This document shows, one piece after another, positions 11,497 through 64,000 of a DNA stretch of 64,000 nt. The stretch covers positions 195,849 through 259,848 of the forward strand of contig WFMF01000178.1 in assembly GCA_011033025.1 (NCBI GenBank), in the 5' to 3' direction. Under the pieces are notes generated by a model, which was not told where the DNA came from, searched no databases, and was given only the letters and a program-made list of their open reading frames with translations. The DNA is from Beroe forskalii (lineage: Eukaryota; Ctenophora; Nuda; Beroida; Beroidae). Each line of letters begins with the position of its first letter. Positions within the stretch are counted from its first letter, which is position 1. The position numbers were made by a program, and so were the translations under genes.

Positions 11497-12969
11497 ATGG
11501 CAGAAGAAGACCGTGTGCATGTAAACGTTGCACTCGAGGAAGCGGGCTGTGGAATTGGTACTATTCTCTACATGTTGGGACCCTTTCTCTTCTGCTGTCT
11601 GCTTGGTGCTGAGATCTTCGTGTTAGCCATTGTGGGGCCCATCCTGAGATGTGACTGGAACCTAGACTCCTTCTCCCTCACTGCCCTCCAAATAAGCACT
11701 ACCTTTGCCATGATGTGCTCCACGGGGCTGATTTCACCTCTTGGAGACAAGTTTGGTCGCCGACCTATGCCCAGTGGAATAATATGGGGAATTTAGGAAT
11801 CAAATTCCCAGTCAAATTTCCAAATGAGAAATCGAAAAAAAGCTTAAATTCGAACAAAATAAGCTTTTCTGGACACATTTTGTAATTGATGAACTCAAAA
11901 TCATGAAATTCATAGAGCTGAATACCATAATCGACCTTTCCCGGCGCCTAATCCGAATCCAGCAGCTGCATTCCCACCGCATTCCCAAACCAGCCATCAC
12001 ATTCCCAAACCAGCCACCGCATTCCCAAACCAGCCGCCGGATTCCTAAACCAGCCGCCGGATTCCTAAACCAGCCGCGGTATTTCCTTGTGTTTGACTTT
12101 GGTCAAACTTTTTTAGTGAAAACTATCTAAATAGCCATCATAAACATTTTAAAATAATTACCATATTCAATGAAAAACATTGTTGCACGTTTCTATTGTT
12201 TCTCTAGCTAGCAATCGAACTTATCTTTTAAAATATCGGTCATTTTAGTAAAAACATGTCAAAACCAGCTGGTCTTTACCCCGAGCTGAAAAAAGCCTCT
12301 TTTTAATCTTAGTTACAGATTCCCAGCCACTTTTTAAAATTATTCCACTGGGGACCTATGGCACTGATTGGCTCAACAGGAGTAATACTGATTGGAATCC
12401 TCTGTGCCTTCATCACGGCCTACTGGCAGCTCTTAACGCTCAGATTGTTGATGGGCCTGTTCTTTGGATTCGGAATTTCTCCAGCTGTAGTTCTGAGCGC
12501 AGAAATGCCACCAAAGAAGTACAGAGCTTTAGGAATGTCTGGCTTCGCCCTAGCCTGGGGGATAGGAGTGTGTATCTGTGGAGCTATCTCCTACTTCGTT
12601 ATGGACTCTTATGGCTGGAAAGGGCTTGTTCTGGGTGTTCCAGTTATCTTCTTACCATGCCCGATTTTGTTTGCTTGCACCAGAGAATCGCCGAGATTTG
12701 ACTTCTATCGCGGGGCAGGAAAGAGGGCAGAGAAAACAATACAAAATTTATATAAACTTAATGGGAAAGGTGATAAAAACATAAATTTGGAAGAAGCAAT
12801 TGGTTCAGAAGCCCCCAAAAATGTTGGATTTATTGCGACCTACAAAATCTTAAAGGCCACACAAAACACAAAGAACTCACTGTTCATCATGATTCTTGGG
12901 TTTTCCGGACAGTTTTGCTACTACTTATATACCTACATCATGCCTAAGTTACTAAACGAGGGTGAATAA
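11497..12969 (+). pseudogene. SVOP/SV2-type MFS transporter, N-terminal half, interrupted
   Basis: Two in-frame blocks (11497-11769 and 12361-12969) make about the first seven membrane segments of a major facilitator transporter. The likely family is the SVOP/SV2 and SLC22-like organic ion carriers, plasma or vesicle membrane proteins. The first block has an N-terminal ALEEAGCGIGT segment, two hydrophobic helices and the loop motif DKFGRRP. The second has YWQLLTLRLLMG, SAEMPPKKYRALG and a RESPRFD loop typical of the family. Between the blocks lies a 583-bp transposon, and removing it and one copy of its 8-bp duplication rejoins the frame exactly. The protein ends LLNEGE at a stop. Helices 8-12 are absent, and at position 12962 a composite repeat begins with a possible splice donor (G|GTGAAT). 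Either the last exons lie elsewhere or the gene is truncated. An intact allele elsewhere is possible. Confidence 0.75.
11770..12352. mobile_element. MITE inserted in the transporter coding exon
   Basis: The element is 583 bp long with perfect 14-bp terminal inverted repeats (CCCAGTGGAATAAT and complement). It is flanked by the perfect octamer GACCTATG (11762-11769 and 12353-12360). The interior has a 20-bp tandem repeat, ATTCCCAAACCAGCC plus five bases, in about five copies (about 11972-12075), and no transposase. The 8-bp duplication suggests hAT-like transposition, but the CCCAG terminus is not the commonest hAT end. The host frame reads without a gap across the empty site (..RRPMALIG..). 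Confidence 0.9.
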
Positions 12970-13636: not shown

Positions 13637-14632
13637 CCCTTCCACTCCTTTTTTTCTTTCTTTCCTTCTTTCCTTTTTTCTTTCTTTCTTTTCTTTATTT
13701 CCTTCCTTTCTTTCCTTCCTTTATTTCCTTCCTTTCTTTCCTTCCTTTCTTTCCTTCCTTTCTTTCCTTCCTTTCTTTCCTTCCTTTCTTTCCTTCCTTT
13801 CTTTCCTTCCTGTCTTTCTTTCCTTTCTTTTCATCCTTTCTTTGTTTCCTTTCTTTCTTTCCTTCTTTTCTTTCTTTCCTTCCTTTCTTTCCTTCCCTTC
13901 TTTCCTTCCTTTCTTTCCGTCCTTTCTTTCCTCCCTTTCCTTTCTTTCCTTCCTACCTTTCTTTCTTTCTTTCCTTTCTTTCTTTCCTTTCTTTCTTTCC
14001 TTTCTTTCTTTCCTTCCTTTCTTTCCTTCCTTTCCTTTCTTTTCTTCCTTTCTTTTCTTCCTTTATTTCCTTCCCTTCTTTCCTTCCTTTCTTTCCTTCC
14101 TTCCTTCCTTTCTTTTCTTTCCTTCCTTTATTTCTTTCCTCCCTTCTTTTCTTTCCTTATTTCTTTCCTTCCTTTCTTACCTCCCTTTCCTTTCTTTCCT
14201 TCCTACCTTTCTTTCTTTCCTTCCTTTCTTTCCTTCCTTTCTTTCCTTCCTTTCTTTCCTTCCTTTCTTTCCTTCCTTTCTTTCCTTCCTTTCTTTCCTT
14301 CCTTTCTTTCCTTCCTTTCTTTCCTTCCTTTCTTTCCTTCCTTTCTTTCCTTCCTTTCTTTCCTTCCTTTCTTTCCTTCCTTTCCTTCATTTCCTTCCTT
14401 CCTTTCTTTCCTTCCTTCCTTTCCTTCCTTTCTTTCCTTCCTTTCTTTCCTTCCTTTCTTTCCTTCCTTTCTTTCCTTCCTTCCTTTCTTTCCTTTCTTT
14501 CCTTCCTTTCTTTCCTTCCTTTCTTTCCTTCCTTTCTTTCTTTCCTTCCTTTCGATTCTTTCTTTCCTTCCCTCCTAATTCTTTCCTTTCTTTCCTTCCT
14601 TGGCCTTTCTTTCTTTTCATTTCTTCAAATTC
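13637..14632 (+). repeat. Polypyrimidine 13-bp minisatellite
   Basis: An uninterrupted C/T strand of about 1 kb is built on a 13-bp unit CCTTTCTTTCCTT. Because 13 is not a multiple of three and TTTCC-type triplets give no stop, all frames stay open. Frames of 348 and 345 codons reading only S, F, L and P are therefore artefacts. Such homopurine-homopyrimidine tracts can form triplex (H-) DNA. Confidence 0.97.
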
Positions 14633-14674
14633 CTAGTAGGTGAAGTCCAGAATGTGCTGCAGATGTTCCTATTG

Positions 14675-14902
14675 TTCCTAAGCCTGCATAAGTGTGAGTA
14701 TATACGCGCCGCGTGCTTCAGCTTCCGTTCCGGCGTTCCCTACGGCGCGGGAAAACGTTGCGCGGCCGCCGGCCGCGCGACGTTTTCCTAATCCCGCATA
14801 GGTGTGACCGTGTGACTTTGTGTGTACGCGCGCTTCCCTTCTGAGGAAGCGCGCCGCGCAACGCAAACCGGCAAACAGGGATATTATATACGTGTTTAGC
14901 AA
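14675..14902. repeat. GC-rich hairpin block between TTCCTAAGCC and GTTTAGCAA
   Basis: Sharp GC-rich island in AT-rich surroundings. It contains GCGCGGCCGCCGGCCGCGC, CGCGCGCTTCCC and GGGAAGCGCGCC-type inverted words. A nested start TTCCTAATCCCGCATAGG lies at 14785. Both ends match those of the micro-elements at 62156-62228 and 62421-62511. The corresponding block in copy 2 is 62412-62728. Confidence 0.75.
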
Positions 14903-15469
14903 AGCAAACCAGACCCGCTAAATAAAATGCATTGATTATAAGATTATTGAAATGCATTAAAATGAAAAAAATGAATAAATAACAAATTTAAAAATATAGT
15001 GCATAGTGAAAATCTGTTAATTTGAATCAAATGAATTACCTTTATTGAAAATTACCTTTGTTAAAAATTTAAGCTCAGCATTAACTCAAAATTTAATCTC
15101 AAATGGTAGATTTAAAACTTGGCAAAAAGTCTTGCAGATGCCAGATTGACGTCTTGAAATTTCTTTTTAATTCAAATATATGAATTCTCAACGGTGGCGC
15201 AATGTTGATTTTTGAGCCGGGGAATTTTTCCCTAGAAAATTAACGCTAATTGAATTATGGTAATTTAATTATAGCAGTCCAACAACTTTTTTGATCCCAA
15301 AAGACAAACAGTAACGTAGTTGTATGAAACATTAGCTTCCCACTCTCAGTCCCAAAGTTGTTTGTTTTCCTAAAGCAATCAGGTCGGACCAATATCTGCA
15401 TGTTCTCATGTTGCAGCATATCAAAAAAGATAGCGATAGGCATATGGAAGTGACATCATAATATTGTGT

Positions 15470-16855: not shown

Positions 16856-19039
16856 GTCTGCATCAGTAGTCTGAAAACATAGAGTCCCTTCTGTTTTAAC
16901 TGCACAAAGATGCAGCTTCAGCCAGGTACAAAAGGGCATAAACCCAGCCCAAAGAGATAGTGGCTCTTTGGAGACCAAATAAGAAGTAGGTAGAAGTGTG
17001 TATTTTGGGACGTTATATTGTTATATTTGGTTTTATTTATCAGGATTTCATCTTCTTGGAGATATGGGCTCTGTAAATTGTGGGATTTCATTGAAGCAGG
17101 CGGATTTTGTGAAGAATTTTGTTATTTTGTGCAGGGTTGTTGATAGTGGCTGCTTAGAGTTAATTATGTCTTATAGTTTAATATTATGGTCTTGGAAGTG
17201 GTAAATTCTCTGTAGGGAGAAGGCTGGAATTTCTTCTAGAATGAGCATTGCTGTCTCATCCGGGCAGAAAATGGGGTCAATTCCGCAGTTTTGTAAGTCA
17301 CAGTAATCACAAAGAGGATCAAGTGCCATATTCAATCTGTGTAGGTGACTATTGAGGTTATTGTGTCCAGAAATTATTTTGAGAAGGATGCATAGATTTC
17401 TGTTGTTAGTTTTATTATTGTAGCTTAGTTAGATAAATATCAAGTGTCACTTTACAATGGTTATTTGCCCTGTCTAGCATTTGGTGTGGAGGGAGTTTGT
17501 GAAAGTTGGAGAGGAGATGTGTGTTGGCGTTTATTCTAACGTTTTTGGCCAGTCAAGCTGGCGCCTAAAGTGAGATGAGTGAGTGAAATGAAAAGCCAGG
17601 AAAGAAACGAGTTGACCCCCTGCTCAGAACCTGATCAGGAGGGTCTACCTGGGGTGCTCTGCCAGGTAATCACTGTGTATTAGCCTGCCTCGACAACAAA
17701 TGAATGGCAGTTACCGCCACTCACCGCGGGGAGGGACCCATACTGTCTCGGACTCACCATCTTCACTGGGTAATGAGACAAGGGGGTGCAGCCACAGCTT
17801 CAAGGGTGCGAGAACAGTATGGGGCACTGGGTCTTACGGATGCCCTGACCAGACTATGGCAACCCAGTTACACAGTATACAACGTACACAGGAGAACAGT
17901 GTTCCTGTGTACGAGGGTGCATTGGTTGTGAAAAGGAACAATGCACGAGTGGCAGTCAATTAAGTAAAAAGATAAAAGAATAGTATAGATATAGAAAGAG
18001 GGGGCTAGGGTGGTTATAATGTAAAATCAAAAGTTAATATACCGTGAGGGGCTGGATAGTGAAGTTATGATACTTAGCTGGTGGGTGGTACTAGAGAGTA
18101 CCCAGCAGGTGGAAGGTGTGGATGATACCAACTGCATGGGGAAGTGCAGTTGGCACACTTGGGAGGGGGAGGTGCGTGAAGCCCCAACTGGAAAGAACCA
18201 GGTCCCTGCCCCAATATAATAATATTGTGTTATTGCATGGAATTACCGATTGATAAAACCGCCTATCAAATGAAAAAGTCGTGTACACTTACAGTAACAC
18301 ACTGAATCTAGTTTGTATCGGTTAATGATGGGCATAATCTTATTTGGTCAAGGTGAAGTAGCCTTGAAATAACAAAAGCAAATTTTTACACAATTATAGA
18401 TAGGCCAGAAAGTGTAACTTGAAAAGTATGGCTCAAAGCTCGACACGATTTGCGATTTTATATAAGAAGGTTGAAAATTTTGTCAAATTTGAGCCAGGGA
18501 AAAAGGATACTTTTCCCCAGCTTCATGAATAAAGCCGGGGAAAAAACCCCCTGGGCCCTGTCCCCGGCTCCTGCTCCACCCATGTGAATTCTTAAGAAAT
18601 AATCCTCTTTGTAGCCAAGAAGAAAGGTGTCAATATTTATACTTGATAAATTAAATTACATATTTTTCTTATCTTTGGGATACAAATACAGTCATCTTTG
18701 TACAGTCAAGCCACAAAACTTTCCAACAGCTCTTTCCTTAGTCTTTGACAGGATCCAAGTGAGATACCTTCATCAGAGATCTAAGTAGATCCAAACAATT
18801 TCTTTATATTCTACCATTTGGTATCATTTGACCTTGTTTATTTGACTTACTATTTTTACTGGCTTTTCAGTGTTTTTATCAATTTTGATATTTTGTCATT
18901 GTGCAAGTTAAATTTGATTTTATCACATTGAATAACTTCTTATTTGTTATCTTCTTTGTAGAACAAATACAGTCACCTTTGTAGTCAAGCCACAGAACTC
19001 TCCAACAACTCTTATTTGTTAATTGTAAACTTGCTTTTT

Positions 19040-19170
19040 ATTAATGTTACTATGGAATGGTCACCAGAGTGAAATGGTGCTAAATGTTTGTTAACATTTG
19101 ATATTGATCAATTGGGTGTGAGATTAGAGATGGTTCAATACCATTATGCTTACTTTACTTTACTTTATTG
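19040..19170 (+). repeat. SINE-like repeat with (TTTAC)n tail
   Basis: Contains TGGAATGGTCACCAGAGTGA, GTTAACATTTG, GGTTCAATACCATTA and a simple tail CTTACTTTACTTTACTTTA. Similar units with different tails occur at 25505-25625, 52040-52190 and 63265-63395. A conserved CAATACCATTA end with a variable short-repeat tail is the usual form of a retroposed SINE; this is inference. Confidence 0.5.
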
Positions 19171-19654
19171 TCATACTATTTATATTATGATAACAAATGA
19201 CCTTGTGAGTGCTGCTACACCCAAAATCATCTGCTTGGGTTCTAAAAGCCATTGGCTATCAAACTTGACTGTTGCCCTTTTGATCCCTTTTGATCCAATT
19301 ATTTATTGATCCAATTATTTATTGATCCAATTATTTATTGATTTCATTATTGAGATTTCTGTGTTTCACTGCAATGATCAATCATATCAAACATAGTTTT
19401 GCATTTATTCAGTAATTGATCCAATACACAATAGATTCATTGCACTCCATTCTTCCATGGATTAATGAGGAATGGATTATTGCAATTTTCAATTTCTTTG
19501 ATTTTTCATCTAAGTGTTTCTGAGAAAATTTTAAATCTTTGAATCTAATTTATCAGTCAATTTTCCATTGTGCTCACAATTTTCAATTTCAAGTTCCAAT
19601 TGAAAGAATAAGTCCTAGCTTATCAGATTGAAATCTATTATCAATTGACATAAT

Positions 19655-24599: not shown

Positions 24600-25036
24600 G
24601 TCATGCAATCACGTAGCAGGAAACCGCGCCACCTAAAAAACTGTGTCGTTCGCGCGGGAATGGTCGCGAGCGCACGTACAGTAAAAAGCTTCGCCAGAAA
24701 TAGGGGTGTCGTTTCGCGACACCCCTGGTTAGGGGAAGCGCCGCTTCCTAAGCCCGCATAGGTGTGTGTTCGCGCCGCGCGCGCTTCCAATTCCCTACGG
24801 GACACACTGTGCTGGGGAAGCGCGCCGCGCCGCGCGAGCCACACATCGACGGGCGATGTCCGTCCCTTTCTTCTGACTTTGCGCCGAAGGCGCAAAGTCC
24901 AACGTCAAATGGAACGTTGCGCCGCGCGCGAGGGTCAGAAATCACTTACTTTATGCATTGGATCAAGCCTAACAATGTCCATTAAAATGAAATTTGGAAA
25001 TGAAATTTGGTGTCTACACAGGCAATTAGGTTCATT
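24600..25036. repeat. GC-rich hairpin block, intergenic
   Basis: GC-rich island with CGCGACACCCCTGGTTAGGG, TTCCTAAGCCCGCATAGGTG (from 24745), GCGCCGCGCGCGCTTCC and GGGGAAGCGCGCCGCGC. The CGCGACACCCC word string recurs at about 50837. Overlapping frames on both strands (up to 110 codons) are by-products of the GC-rich sequence. Confidence 0.7.
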
Positions 25037-25037
25037 G

Positions 25038-25092
25038 TTGCTAAACACTTAAATCCCTGTTTGCAGCGCGCGGCGCGTACACGGGCTTAGAA
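25038..25092. mobile_element. GC-rich micro-element, 55 bp
   Basis: Starts TTGCTAAACAC and ends GGGCTTAGAA, with core GCAGCGCGCGGCGCG. It is flanked by the direct repeat AGGTTCATTG (25028-25037 and 25093-25102). Same ends as the copies at 62156-62228 and, inverted, 62421-62511. Confidence 0.75.
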
Positions 25093-50717: not shown

Positions 50718-51060
50718 GGAAGCGCACGTTACTGAGCTGCGTTGGCAAACACAAATACCCTTGTTCGCGTTGCACGGCCCTGGCCCTGGTGTTGCTCTAA
50801 CCAGATCCCTAGTTTTACGCGCGCGCCGCGCCTTCGCGACACCCCTGGTTAGGGGAAGCCCTGGTGCACTTCTTGACACATCACACATGTAAATGCTAAT
50901 GCTGTGACCCGGGTCGTGGCGCGCGCGCGAGGGGGTCAGGCAACGCCTGACAAACACACACCTATGATTGTCTGACGTTGACAGACCCTCTCGAGAATCA
51001 GCGCCGCGCGCGCGCGGCGCTGACGCCCGCGCCAGCCGCTTCGCATTTCCATGAGAAAAA
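50718..51060. repeat. GC-rich hairpin block upstream of SPRYD7
   Basis: Contains CGCGACACCCCTGGTTAGGG as at 24.7 kb, then CGTGGCGCGCGCGCGAGGG and GCGCCGCGCGCGCGCGGCGC. The composite-repeat segment that follows (AAGACGTCAATCTGCAAGAC, about 51330) is in inverted orientation relative to copies at 15.1 and 62.9 kb. Confidence 0.65.
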
Positions 51061-60689: not shown

Positions 60690-62152
60690 TCTCCTTTTTT
60701 CTTTCCTTCCTTCCTTTCCTTTTTTTTCTTTCTTTCCGTCCATTCTTTCCTTCCTGTCTTTCTTTCCTTTCTTTCCTTCCTTTCTTTCCTTTCTTTATTT
60801 CTTTCCTCCTTTTCTTTCTTTTCTTCCTTTCTTTCCTTCCTTTCCTTCCTTTCTTTCCTTCCTTCCTTTCTTTCCTTCCTTTCTTTCCTTCCTTTCTTTC
60901 CTTCCTTTCTTTCCTTCCTTTCTCTCCTTCCTTTCTTTCCTTCCTTTCTTTCCGTCCTTTCTTTCTTTCCTTTCTTTCCTTCCTTTTTTTCCTTCCTTTC
61001 TTTCCTTCCTTTCTTTCCTTTCTTTCTTTCCTTCCTTTTTTTCCTTCCTTTCTTTCCTTCCTTTCGTTCTTTCCTTTCTTTCCTTCCTTTCTTTCCTTCC
61101 TTTCTTTCCTTCCTTTCTTTCCTTCCTTTCTTTCCTTCCTTTCTTTCCTCCCTTTCTTTCCTTCCTTCCTTCTTTTCCTTCCTTTCTTTCCTTCCTTTCT
61201 TTCCTTCCTTTCTTTCCTTCCTTTTTTTCCTTCCTTTTTTTCCTTCCTTCCTTTCTTTCCTTCCTTTCTTTCCTTCCTTTCTTTCCTTCCTTTCTTTCCT
61301 TCCTTTCTTTCCTTCCTTTCTTTCCGTCCTTTATTTCCTTCCTTTCTTTCCTTCCTTTCTTTCCTTCCTTTCTTTCCTTTCTTTCTTTCCTTCCTTTTTT
61401 TCCTTTCTTTCCTTCCTTTCGTTCTTTCCTTCCTTTCTTTCCTTCCTTTCTTTCCTTCCTTTCTTTCCTTCCTTTCTTTCCTTCCTTTCTTTCCTTCCTT
61501 TCTTTCCTTCCTTTCTTTCCTTCCTTTCTTTCCTTCCTTTCTTTCCTTCCTTTCTTTCCTTCCTTTCTTTCCTCCCTTTCTTTCCTTCCTTCCTTCCTTT
61601 CTTTCCTTCCTTTCTTTCCTTCCTTTCTTTCCTTCCTTTCTTTCCTTCCTTTCTTTCCTTCCTTTCTTTCCTTCCTTTCTTTCCTTCCTTTCTCTCCTTC
61701 CTTTCTTTCCTTCCTTTCTTTCCGTCCTTTCTTTCCTTCCTTTCTTTCCTTCCTTTCTCTCTTTCCTTCCTTTCTTTCTTTCCTTTCTTTCTTTCTTTCC
61801 TTTCTTTCTTTCCTTCCTTCCTTTCCTTCATTTCTTTCCTTCCTTTCTTTCCTTCCTTTCTTTCCCTCCTTTCTTTCCTTCCTTTCGTTCTTTCCTTCCT
61901 TTCTTTCCTTCATTTCTTTCCTTTCTTTCTTTCCTTCCTTTCTTTCCTCCTTTCCTTTCCTTCCTTCCTTTCCTTCCTTCCTTTCCTTCCTTCCTTTCCT
62001 TCCTTCCTTTCCTTCCTTCCTTTCCTTCCTTCCTTTCCTTTCCTTCCTTCCTTTCCTTCATTTCTTTCCTTCCTTTCTTTCCTTCCTTTCTTTCCTTCCT
62101 TTCTTTCCTTCCTTTCTTCCCTTCCTTTCTTTCCTTCCTTTCTTTCCTTCCT
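60690..62152 (+). repeat. Polypyrimidine 13-bp minisatellite, long copy
   Basis: About 1.46 kb of C/T-only sequence with the 13-bp unit CCTTTCTTTCCTT, changing to an 11-13-bp CCTTCCTTTCCTT form at about 61950-62040. It continues after the micro-element at 62238-62375. Frames of 508, 531 and (minus strand) 372 codons are artefacts of stop-free composition. Confidence 0.97.
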
Positions 62153-62155
62153 TTG

Positions 62156-62228
62156 TTGCTAAACACGTATATCCGATCCCTGTCTGCGTTGCGCCGCGCG
62201 CGTACAGACACCTATGCGGGCTTAGGAA
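62156..62228. mobile_element. GC-rich micro-element, 73 bp, inside the polypyrimidine array
   Basis: Starts TTGCTAAACACGTATATCC and ends CACCTATGCGGGCTTAGGAA, with core GCGTTGCGCCGCGCGCG. It is flanked by the 9-bp direct repeat CTTCCTTTG (62147-62155 and 62229-62237). The copy-1 array has no such insertion, so the event postdates the split of the two copies or was lost there. Confidence 0.85.
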
Positions 62229-62411
62229 CTTCCTTTGCGTTCCTTGATCCTTTCTTTCCTTCCTTTCTTTCCATCCTTTCTTTTTTTTCCTTCTTTCCTT
62301 TCTTTCCTTCCTTTCTTTCTTTCCTTCCTTTCTTTTCTTTCTTTCTTTATACCTTCCTTTCTTTTCTTCATTCCTAGTAGGTGAAGTCCAGAATGTGCAG
62401 ATGCAGCGATG

Positions 62412-62728
62412 TTCCTAAGCTTCCTAAGCCCGCATAGGTGTGCGTACGCGCGCCGCGCTTCCCTGGGGAAGCGCGCCGCGCAACGCAGACAGGGATATAC
62501 GTGTTAAGCAATTCCTAAGCCTGCATATGCATAGGTGTACACTGTGCGTATACGCGCCGCGCGCTTCCAATTCCGTTCCCCACGGAAGCGCGCGCCGCAC
62601 AACGTTTTCTTAAACCCGCATAGGTGTGTGTAGTACATACACCTATGCGCGCCGCGCGCCGCGCTTCCCTTCTGAGGAAGCGCGCCTCGCAAAGCAAACA
62701 GGGATATACGTAATACGTGTTTAGCAAA
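62412..62728. repeat. GC-rich hairpin block with nested insertion
   Basis: Equivalent of 14675-14902, running from TTCCTAAGC to ACGTGTTTAGCAA. It contains GCGCGCTTCCAATTCC, GGAAGCGCGCGCCGC and GCGCGCCGCGCGCCGCGC. A 91-bp micro-element sits in its first nine bases. Minus-strand frames (70-93 codons) are shadows. Confidence 0.7.
62421..62511. mobile_element. GC-rich micro-element, 91 bp, nested in a related block
   Basis: Starts TTCCTAAGCCCGCATAGGTG and ends ATACGTGTTAAGCAA, the reverse orientation of the 62156 copy. The core is a perfect-looking hairpin, GCGCGCCGCGCTTCCC with GGGGAAGCGCGCCGCGC. The 9-bp duplication TTCCTAAGC (62412-62420 and 62512-62520) is the first nine bases of the outer block, so the element landed in a relative. 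Confidence 0.85.
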
Positions 62729-63264
62729 GCAAACCAGACCCGCTAAGGCGCTGAATAAAATGCATTGATTATTCATGAAATGCATTGAAATGAAAAAAAT
62801 GAATGAATAGAATAAGAAAATTTAAAAGTAAAGTGAATTGCTGTTAATTTGAATCAAATGAATTACCTTTATTGAAAAATTCCTTTTGTTAAAAAATCTA
62901 AGCTCAGCATTGCATTAGCTCAAAATTTACTCTCAAATGGTAGATTTAAAACTTGGCGAAAAGTCTTGCAGATTGACGTCTTGAAATTAATTCTTTTTAA
63001 TTCAAATATATGCATTCTTAAGAAATAATCCTTTTTGTAGCCAAGAAGAAAGGTATCAATATTTATACTTGATAAATTAAATTGCATATTTTTCTTTATA
63101 TTCTACCATTTTGTATTATTTGACCTTGTTTATTTGACTTACTATTTTTACTGGCTTTTCAGTGTTTTTATCATTTTATCAATTTTGATATTTTGTCATT
63201 GTGGAAGTTAAATTTAATTTTATCACATTGAATAACTTCTAATTTGTTAATTGTAAAATTGCTT

Positions 63265-63395
63265 TTTATTAATGTTACTATGGAATGGGCACCAGAGTGA
63301 AATGGTGCTAAATAATTGTTAACATTTGATATTGATCAATTGGGTGTGAGATTAGAGATCGTTCAATACCATTATGCTTACTTTACTTTACTTTA
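63265..63395 (+). repeat. SINE-like repeat with (TTTAC)n tail, copy 2
   Basis: Counterpart of 19040-19170 within composite copy 2: TGGAATGGGCACCAGAGTGA … GTTCAATACCATTA, CTTACTTTACTTTACTTTA. Confidence 0.5.
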
Positions 63396-64000
63396 TTGTC
63401 ATACTACATTTTTAATGGGCCATCTATTTTCATTTTATTGTTCATTTATTCAGCTTGATGATGTTTTGTTAAAGTATACTTGTGCATTGGGCTCGCAATT
63501 AGGAGCGTATTAGATATATTAATTAATTAATTATTGTCTAACTAACTGAGAATGTTGTGTCACACTTTGTGGAGTTCCTGAAGAAGAGATATTTTATCTC
63601 GAAACTGACAGTTGAATAGCAGTGCAAAGTGTATGGGTTTGATTTCATATTTGAGAATTTTTGTGTTTCACTGAAATGATCAATCACTTCAAACATAATT
63701 ATTGTCATACTATTTATATTATGATATTGTCATACTATTTATATTATGATAACAAATGACCTTGTGAGTGCTGCTACACCCAAACTCATCTGCTGGGGTT
63801 CTAAAAGCCATTGGCTATCAAACTTGACTGCTGCCCTTTTGATCCAATTATTTATTTATTTCATTATTGAGATTTCTGTGTTTCACTGCAATGATCAATC
63901 ATATCAAACATAGTTTTGCATTTATTCATTAATTGATCCAATACACAATAGATTCATTGCACTCCATTCTTCCATGGATTAATGAGGAATGGATTATTGC

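Follow-up and report, generated by a model that had tools for sequence, protein, structure and literature searches.

Abundant GC-rich micro-elements with 9-bp target duplications in the genome of Beroe forskalii

Short insertions and a segmental duplication in the window

The window, by which we mean the whole 64,000-bp stretch of the Beroe forskalii contig that was analysed, contains several very short GC-rich elements (Table 1), a segmental duplication that includes a C/T array, and an open frame on the plus strand (12358-12969) matching major facilitator / sugar transporter proteins. A search of the window against Rfam gave no match at the gathering threshold, and a tRNA scan of it was empty.

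An original prediction, made from the letters of the window, had delimited three insertions, and all of them are present with their borders, ends and duplications: the 55-bp, 73-bp and 91-bp elements of what we call family A. As it had described, the 73-bp element interrupts a C/T array, and the 91-bp element lies within the opening nine bases of another family end, which continues on its far side. The repeats that border the 73-bp element are exact over 9 bp. The repeat flanking the 55-bp element is 10 bp long, or 9 bp if the next A is assigned to the element. This 55-bp sequence has no second place in the genome at ≤3 mismatches, and the 91-bp element (C223:258269-258359) is one of 53 genome copies of a 91-bp form, with 3 mismatches. 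Larger GC-rich blocks had also been pointed out at 14.7, 24.7, 50.8 and 62.6 kb; the larger A-type elements in the 14.7- and 62.6-kb blocks (Table 1) lack the 9-bp repeat, each having 6 mismatches in the putative repeat.

Table 1. Micro-elements, target duplications and GC blocks (positions in the window, except for family F)
Feature	Position	Strand	Remarks
A-family micro-element, 73 bp	62156..62228	+	In C/T array; ends TTGCTAAACACG...CGGGCTTAGGAA; exact 9-bp repeat CTTCCTTTG
9-bp target duplication CTTCCTTTG, left copy	62147..62155	.	
9-bp target duplication CTTCCTTTG, right copy	62229..62237	.	
A-family micro-element, 91 bp	62421..62511	-	Exact 9-bp repeat TTCCTAAGC; nested in end of another A-type end
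9-bp target duplication TTCCTAAGC, left copy	62412..62420	.	
9-bp target duplication TTCCTAAGC, right copy	62512..62520	.	First nine bases of the host A-type end; host continues from 62512
A-family micro-element, 55 bp (56 bp with next A)	25038..25092 (/3)	+	AGGTTCATTG on both flanks
D-family micro-element, 66 bp	50792..50857	+	Ends TTGCTCTAACCAG...CTGGTTAGGGGAA; exact 9-bp duplication GCCCTGGTG
GC block	24720..24950	.	D right end 24720-24737; A right-end fragment from 24745; C-family start from about 24846 on (read by eye)
A-type right end and GC core	14675..14784	-	Holds uninterrupted paralogue of 62412/62512 site
Larger A-type element, 118 bp	14785..14902	-	No 9-bp repeat; paralogue of 62607-62727
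Larger A-type element or composite, 121 bp	62607..62727	-	No 9-bp repeat; paralogue of 14785-14902
Family F, TIR type TTGTCAGACGTT, 95-102 bp	L016:3227-3328, L016:4115-4216, L020:4823-4917		8-bp duplication; GC palindrome

Positions 62594-63021 match 14772-15191 at 78% and form a paralogous segment, and 63008-63406 continues piecewise at 18582-19178 with 92-96% match. The C/T arrays beside both paralogues also match one another, in low-complexity sequence where the extent of a match is no measure. The segmental duplication (C/T array and flank) covers about 62000-63406 on one side and 14200-15191 and 18582-19178 on the other, and its first copy seems to be split by about 3.4 kb (15.2-18.6 kb).

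The paralogous segment gives a view of the insertion sites without their insertions. The C/T array at 14.2-14.6 kb lacks the 73-bp element, though arrays of this kind do not allow an alignment of single bases. Where the 91-bp element has inserted, the paralogue shows an unbroken TTCCTAAGCCTGCATAAG (alignment, read by eye). From this comparison of sequences, the 73-bp and 91-bp insertions would most simply postdate the segmental duplication.

Abundance of family A and its 9-bp duplication

The 16-bp left end of family A, TTGCTAAACACGTATA, has 3,013 exact copies (1516 + 1497) in the genome (216 Mb, 1,134 contigs), and the reversed control has 0. Pairing left with right ends across the window plus 28 fetched loci (L001, L009-L035) gave 46 pairs 43-217 bp apart. 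The 9-bp flanking repeat was exact in 20 of these pairs and had one mismatch in 7, while shuffled partners gave an exact repeat in 0.11%; the other 19 pairs had at least 2 mismatches. Some of the 46 were mispaired because copies are nested in one another, and all were retained in the count. Exact repeats of 8 bp and 10 bp were found in 1 and 0 of the 46 pairs, respectively.

A second sample comprised 22 left ends from C3-C25, taken in list order with flanks ignored and with three places at C25:100.6-100.9 kb skipped. Here the 9-bp repeat was exact in 8 cases, had one mismatch in 4 and was not found in good form in 4; L079 and L080, which lack a good 9-bp repeat, show an exact 8-bp repeat by eye. 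Six left ends had no right end inside 215 bp, and one of these was later resolved as an element that is whole at 286 bp (L094/L097), with an exact 9-bp duplication and another repeat nested within it. In a nested pair at L026:4056 and L026:4201, exact 9-bp repeats were present at both levels. The flanking repeats of about 9 bp described for the window recur in both samples, as they do in the identical copies described below.

The 68-bp and 91-bp forms

At ≤3 mismatches, a single 68-bp sequence is present 129 times in the genome (control, 0), and 45 of these copies are identical. We fetched 20 of the identical copies with 30-bp flanks: the 9-bp duplication was exact in 18, had one mismatch in one and contained an extra base in one. 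L058 and L059 have the same flank and represent one insertion, so that 19 of the 20 are independent, and the assembly may contain further duplicates among the copies. Among the 53 copies of the 91-bp form, 29 have 0 mismatches. Because copies are identical and duplications exact, we infer that the elements have been active and have spread recently.

Many element lengths besides 68 and 91 bp occur, with a possible clustering near these two values. A 43-bp copy (L013) is unique in the genome, as is the 55-bp copy of the window, and both may have shrunk after insertion. The 91-bp forms carry core arms in mutually reverse-complement versions (GCGCCGCGCGC, GCGCGCGGCGC), which suggests inversion or conversion between hairpin arms.

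Ends, core and predicted folding

Family A elements have 23 conserved bases at the left end and about 20 at the right, and the two ends are asymmetric (left TTGCTAAACACGTATATCCCTGT, right TTCCTAAGCCCGCATA). When the left TTGCTAAACACGTATA is compared with the right TTCCTAAGCCCGCATA, 12 of 16 positions match in a count by hand, giving an imperfect 16-bp TIR. The mean pairwise edit distance in 29 simple elements with exact duplication was 0.106 over the 43 terminal bases and 0.497 over the core, and the core has a GC content of 0.71 (36 elements). The 36 pairs of ≤115 bp measure 43-113 bp and have no coding capacity; in the 68-bp element, about 25 bp lie between the conserved terminal stretches.

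The original prediction had assigned a hairpin to the GC core, which holds in altered form. With single-strand DNA parameters, the 68-, 91- and 43-bp forms are predicted to fold over their entire length, the fold of the 68- and 91-bp forms not being confined to the core, but the ends of the 73- and 55-bp copies in the window are not predicted to pair.

Target preference and GC blocks

Insertion is biased toward GC-rich DNA and other micro-elements. Target flanks had a GC content of at least 0.5 in 14 of 20 cases, compared to 17.7% of 60-mers in the window. At least two micro-family 11-mers were present in 8 of 20 empty sites, compared to 89 of 3762 window 51-mers (2.4%); in the transposase loci, the corresponding figure was 5 of 2601 (0.2%). 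The nested GC blocks fit with these GC-rich targets and with the micro-family 11-mers at empty sites. It had been proposed that the larger GC blocks were built by repeated self-insertion. Self-insertion accounts for only part of them: the blocks mix several families instead of consisting of one, and those at 14.7 and 62.6 kb are the two copies of a duplicated segment.

Companion families

At least four other CpG-rich micro-families, B, C, D and F, are found in the same islands as family A. The right-end 18-mer of family D (TTGCCCTAACCAG.../TTCCCCTAACCAG) has 687 exact genome matches. An exact 9-bp duplication flanks 10 of 20 rows of this family, corresponding to 6 of 12 elements with orientations counted once, and an exact 8-bp duplication flanks 0 of 20 rows. 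The D element of the window has no second genome place at ≤3 mismatches. Families A and D have a common end asymmetry, with TTGC on the left and TTCC on the right.

In the other families, duplications of 8 and 9 bp occur. Among the five family C elements, two have exact repeats of 9 bp, two of 8 bp and one a 9-bp repeat with a mismatch; in its variant Cb (n=3), one has 9 bp and one 8 bp. Family B shows 8 bp in 3 and 9 bp in 2 of 8 rows (5 elements). Family F has an 8-bp duplication in 6 of 8 rows (3 of 5 elements) and is perhaps another micro-transposon, of a hAT-like type. By eye, families C, D and F also contain GC palindromes. The hAT duplication is 8 bp; family A does not fit this pattern, with exact 8-bp repeats in 1 of 46 and, by eye, 2 of 22, and neither does family D, with 0 of 20 rows.

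We also carried out a motif-free scan for TIR-flanked exact maximal repeats. For lengths 6-12, it returned 8, 9, 9, 21, 2, 1 and 0 repeats around CpG-rich bodies and 38, 33, 14, 27, 6, 1 and 1 around all bodies.

Search for a transposase

The genome contains 99 transposase matches: 46 MULE rows (PF10551), 35 Merlin-type and 18 Mutator-type (PF20700). We examined 28 of the 99 places (13 of 46 MULE, 12 of 35 Merlin-type and 3 of 18 PF20700); at 19 of these, a single side was covered. The scan for A ends took in all 28 and allowed up to 2-3 mismatches, and that for C, D and B ends allowed ≤2 mismatches in 27 and ≤3 in L100; F ends were scanned in L098-L100 only. At the 28 places of the 99 rows, no paired A ends were found around a transposase. 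Isolated, weak and unpaired end matches did occur (e.g. at L030, L035, L053, L098 and L099), such as one 2-mismatch A-end match at L053 and one 2-mismatch match to the D left end at L030.

A longer relative with the same ends and a transposase gene had been proposed as something to look for, and the same 28 places did not contain one. The enzyme had been proposed to be Mutator-like or of an unknown type, and a Mutator-like one may be involved. MULE, Merlin-type and THAP/Mutator genes are present, and the MULE at L033 has a candidate 9-bp duplication, TTCAAAATA, together with ends that differ from those of family A; the A-end matches at the 28 places are isolated ones with 2-3 mismatches.

Exact matching to other collections gave no hit for the left-end 22-mer in IMG/VR or for the right-end 20-mer in GTDB genomes, two collections from which records near this genome may be absent.

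Classification and mechanism

Defined ends, the 9-bp duplication, dispersed copies and two empty paralogous sites bear out the reading of these sequences as mobile elements. Very probably, they are micro-MITEs, extremely small cut-and-paste DNA transposons that are non-autonomous and are mobilized in trans by a transposase with a 9-bp stagger. They have a fixed-length duplication, TIRs, a high copy number with homogeneous subfamily size and no coding capacity, as MITEs do. The kind is a known one (a MITE, or non-autonomous TIR transposon), and what is unusual is the small size, the GC palindromic body, the nesting of several families and the apparent youth.

The short TIRs, the constant length of the 9-bp duplication, the empty sites and the dispersed copies mark transposition with a staggered cut, and the enzyme would be a DDE-type transposase acting in trans. 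Given such an enzyme, the chances that it is Mutator-like are about even; this is the first guess because of the 9-bp stagger and the MULEs in the genome. A transposase supplied in trans would recognize the asymmetric ends TTGCTAAACACGTATATCCCTGT and TTCCTAAGCCCGCATA, pair both and insert the element into target DNA whose strands are cut 9 bases apart, and repair of the staggered target would then produce the 9-bp duplication. The palindromic GC core would be altered by slippage, hairpin deletion and nested insertion, which would account for a core that differs in most copies between ends that stay constant.

The ends of so short an element could be paired in three ways: through bending or bridging of the element by the enzyme, through pairing between the ends of two elements, or through folding of the palindromic body. 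The last option adds to the explanation above that hairpin or cruciform extrusion of the GC core juxtaposes the ends of DNA below its bending length, an addition that we consider possible though doubtful. It is consistent with the end-to-end folds predicted for the 68- and 91-bp forms, with the core GC content of 0.71 and with the palindromes seen by eye in families C, D and F. According to the looping formula for DNA ends in an excerpt of PMC3687335, the local end concentration relative to 1300 bp falls to 4.9e-16 at 68 bp and to 1.35e-8 at 91 bp, and by extrapolation simple looping of 68 bp is about 2e15 times less likely than that of 1300 bp; however, these lengths lie far below those that the formula covers, and it allows neither for bending by protein nor for the limited reach of a transpososome. 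The window copies of 73 and 55 bp, with no predicted end pairing, also argue against a folding core, as do copies of 43-57 bp that have an exact repeat and have lost most of the hairpin (two of these, at 43 and 55 bp, are unique), and the ends of two elements could pair in trans instead.

A wider form of the folding idea seems to us rather unlikely. Families A, B, C, D and F would then make up a community of nuclear micro-transposons in which the GC palindromes are a built-in fold that sets the ends side by side, A and D may use one enzyme, and the sequence of the core can change freely as long as it still folds.

It is unlikely that the transposase is instead of the Merlin (IS1595) type. Merlin duplications are 8-9 bp long, the genome has 35 Merlin-type matches, families C and B have duplications of both 8 and 9 bp, and two A copies show 8 bp by eye, but A ends were found at none of the 12 of 35 Merlin-type places examined. 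That the elements are introners (mobile introns) or serve RNA in some other way is very improbable: their size and fold-back resemble those of some introners in the excerpted account of PMC7789003, but the Amoebophrya introners described there have direct repeats of 3-5 nt at the intron edges where these elements have 9 bp, of the copies in the window one interrupts a C/T array and another a family end, and the window lacks Rfam matches at the gathering threshold. Spread of GC hairpins by ectopic recombination or segmental duplication, in spite of the segmental duplication in the window and the two fetched 68-bp copies with a common flank, is hardly credible, as flanks otherwise differ among the 20 identical copies of the 68-bp form, 18 of which have an exact 9-bp repeat directly at their ends.

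Relation to known elements

Micro-MITEs, as we interpret these elements, share with MITEs in general their shortness, non-coding sequence, TIRs, fixed-length target duplication, high copy number and nested insertion. MITEs are usually larger and have an AT-rich body, whereas the mobile units here are 68 and 91 bp with a GC- and CpG-rich palindromic body, and no autonomous partner was found at the 28 places. Very short GC-rich hairpin elements are known as the mobile GC clusters of yeast mitochondria and as bacterial REP and RUP palindromes; those are organellar or bacterial, whereas the elements described here are in megabase-sized eukaryotic contigs and have a 9-bp duplication.

MULEs duplicate about 9 bp of target, and MULEs without long TIRs exist. 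The 9-bp duplication is common to our elements and to MULEs or MULE-derived MITEs, and the genome contains MULEs, including the one at L033 with its candidate 9-bp duplication. The elements differ in their imperfect TIR of about 16 bp, and no MULE with A ends was found at 13 of the 46 places. In classical maize Mu, the TIR is about 215 bp according to an excerpt of PMC2774946, longer than the whole of a 68- or 91-bp element.

BogoMITE of Blepharisma, a Pogo/Tigger-type element with C-rich ends (PMC9942856, in excerpt), is similar in being very abundant and homogeneous, with nested insertions and few autonomous copies. It differs in its length of about 389 bp and its TAA/TTA duplication, compared to 68 or 91 bp and 9 bp here. 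In the literature searched, which had limited coverage, we found no description of a micro-element family of this sort.

A 68-bp unit that recurs in numerous identical copies, all flanked by target duplications of their own, is a natural case of very small mobile DNA and poses the testable question of how a transposase pairs two ends on DNA below its bending length. The 9-bp duplications, combined with dating by nesting, provide clean marks for the history of the genome. In addition, the CpG-rich islets that the A family builds in an AT-rich genome could pass for regulatory CpG islands.

Other coding sequences and repeats

Several sequences encountered near the ends or among the transposase loci are recorded here. 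The MULE at L033 (L033:1008-4023) is a candidate FLYWCH-MULE transposon of about 3 kb whose ends contain repeats of TCTGAATACCCTCG. Open frames of about 760 aa with THAP and Mutator-like transposase domains are present at L098:1261-3531 and L099:1276-3570 (minus); their coding parts are 75% identical in DNA, and their flanks have one short match only. An 11-mer common to MULE coding DNA and family C, ATGTGGAACGT, was judged to be a chance match.

An open frame with a weak PHD-finger-like Pfam match below the cut-off (L001/L036; L036:6325-6867, minus) lies about 30 bp inside a right-end-like TTCCTAAGCACGCATAGGTGTG. It has 116 genome matches, and the open frames in the closest of them are about 350-380 aa long. 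We rejected it as an autonomous partner, as its copies at C155 and C633 lack the right-end-like TTCCTAAGCACGCATAGGTGTG, and it is likely a retrotransposon ORF1-like fragment next to a micro-element scrap. The sequence at C25:258695, which has an AT-rich interior, was likewise tried as an autonomous partner and turned out to be a micro-element holding a nested repeat of about 200 bp. This nested repeat (L097:68-273, C25:258717 on) is about 206 bp long and has 40 other match rows in the genome.
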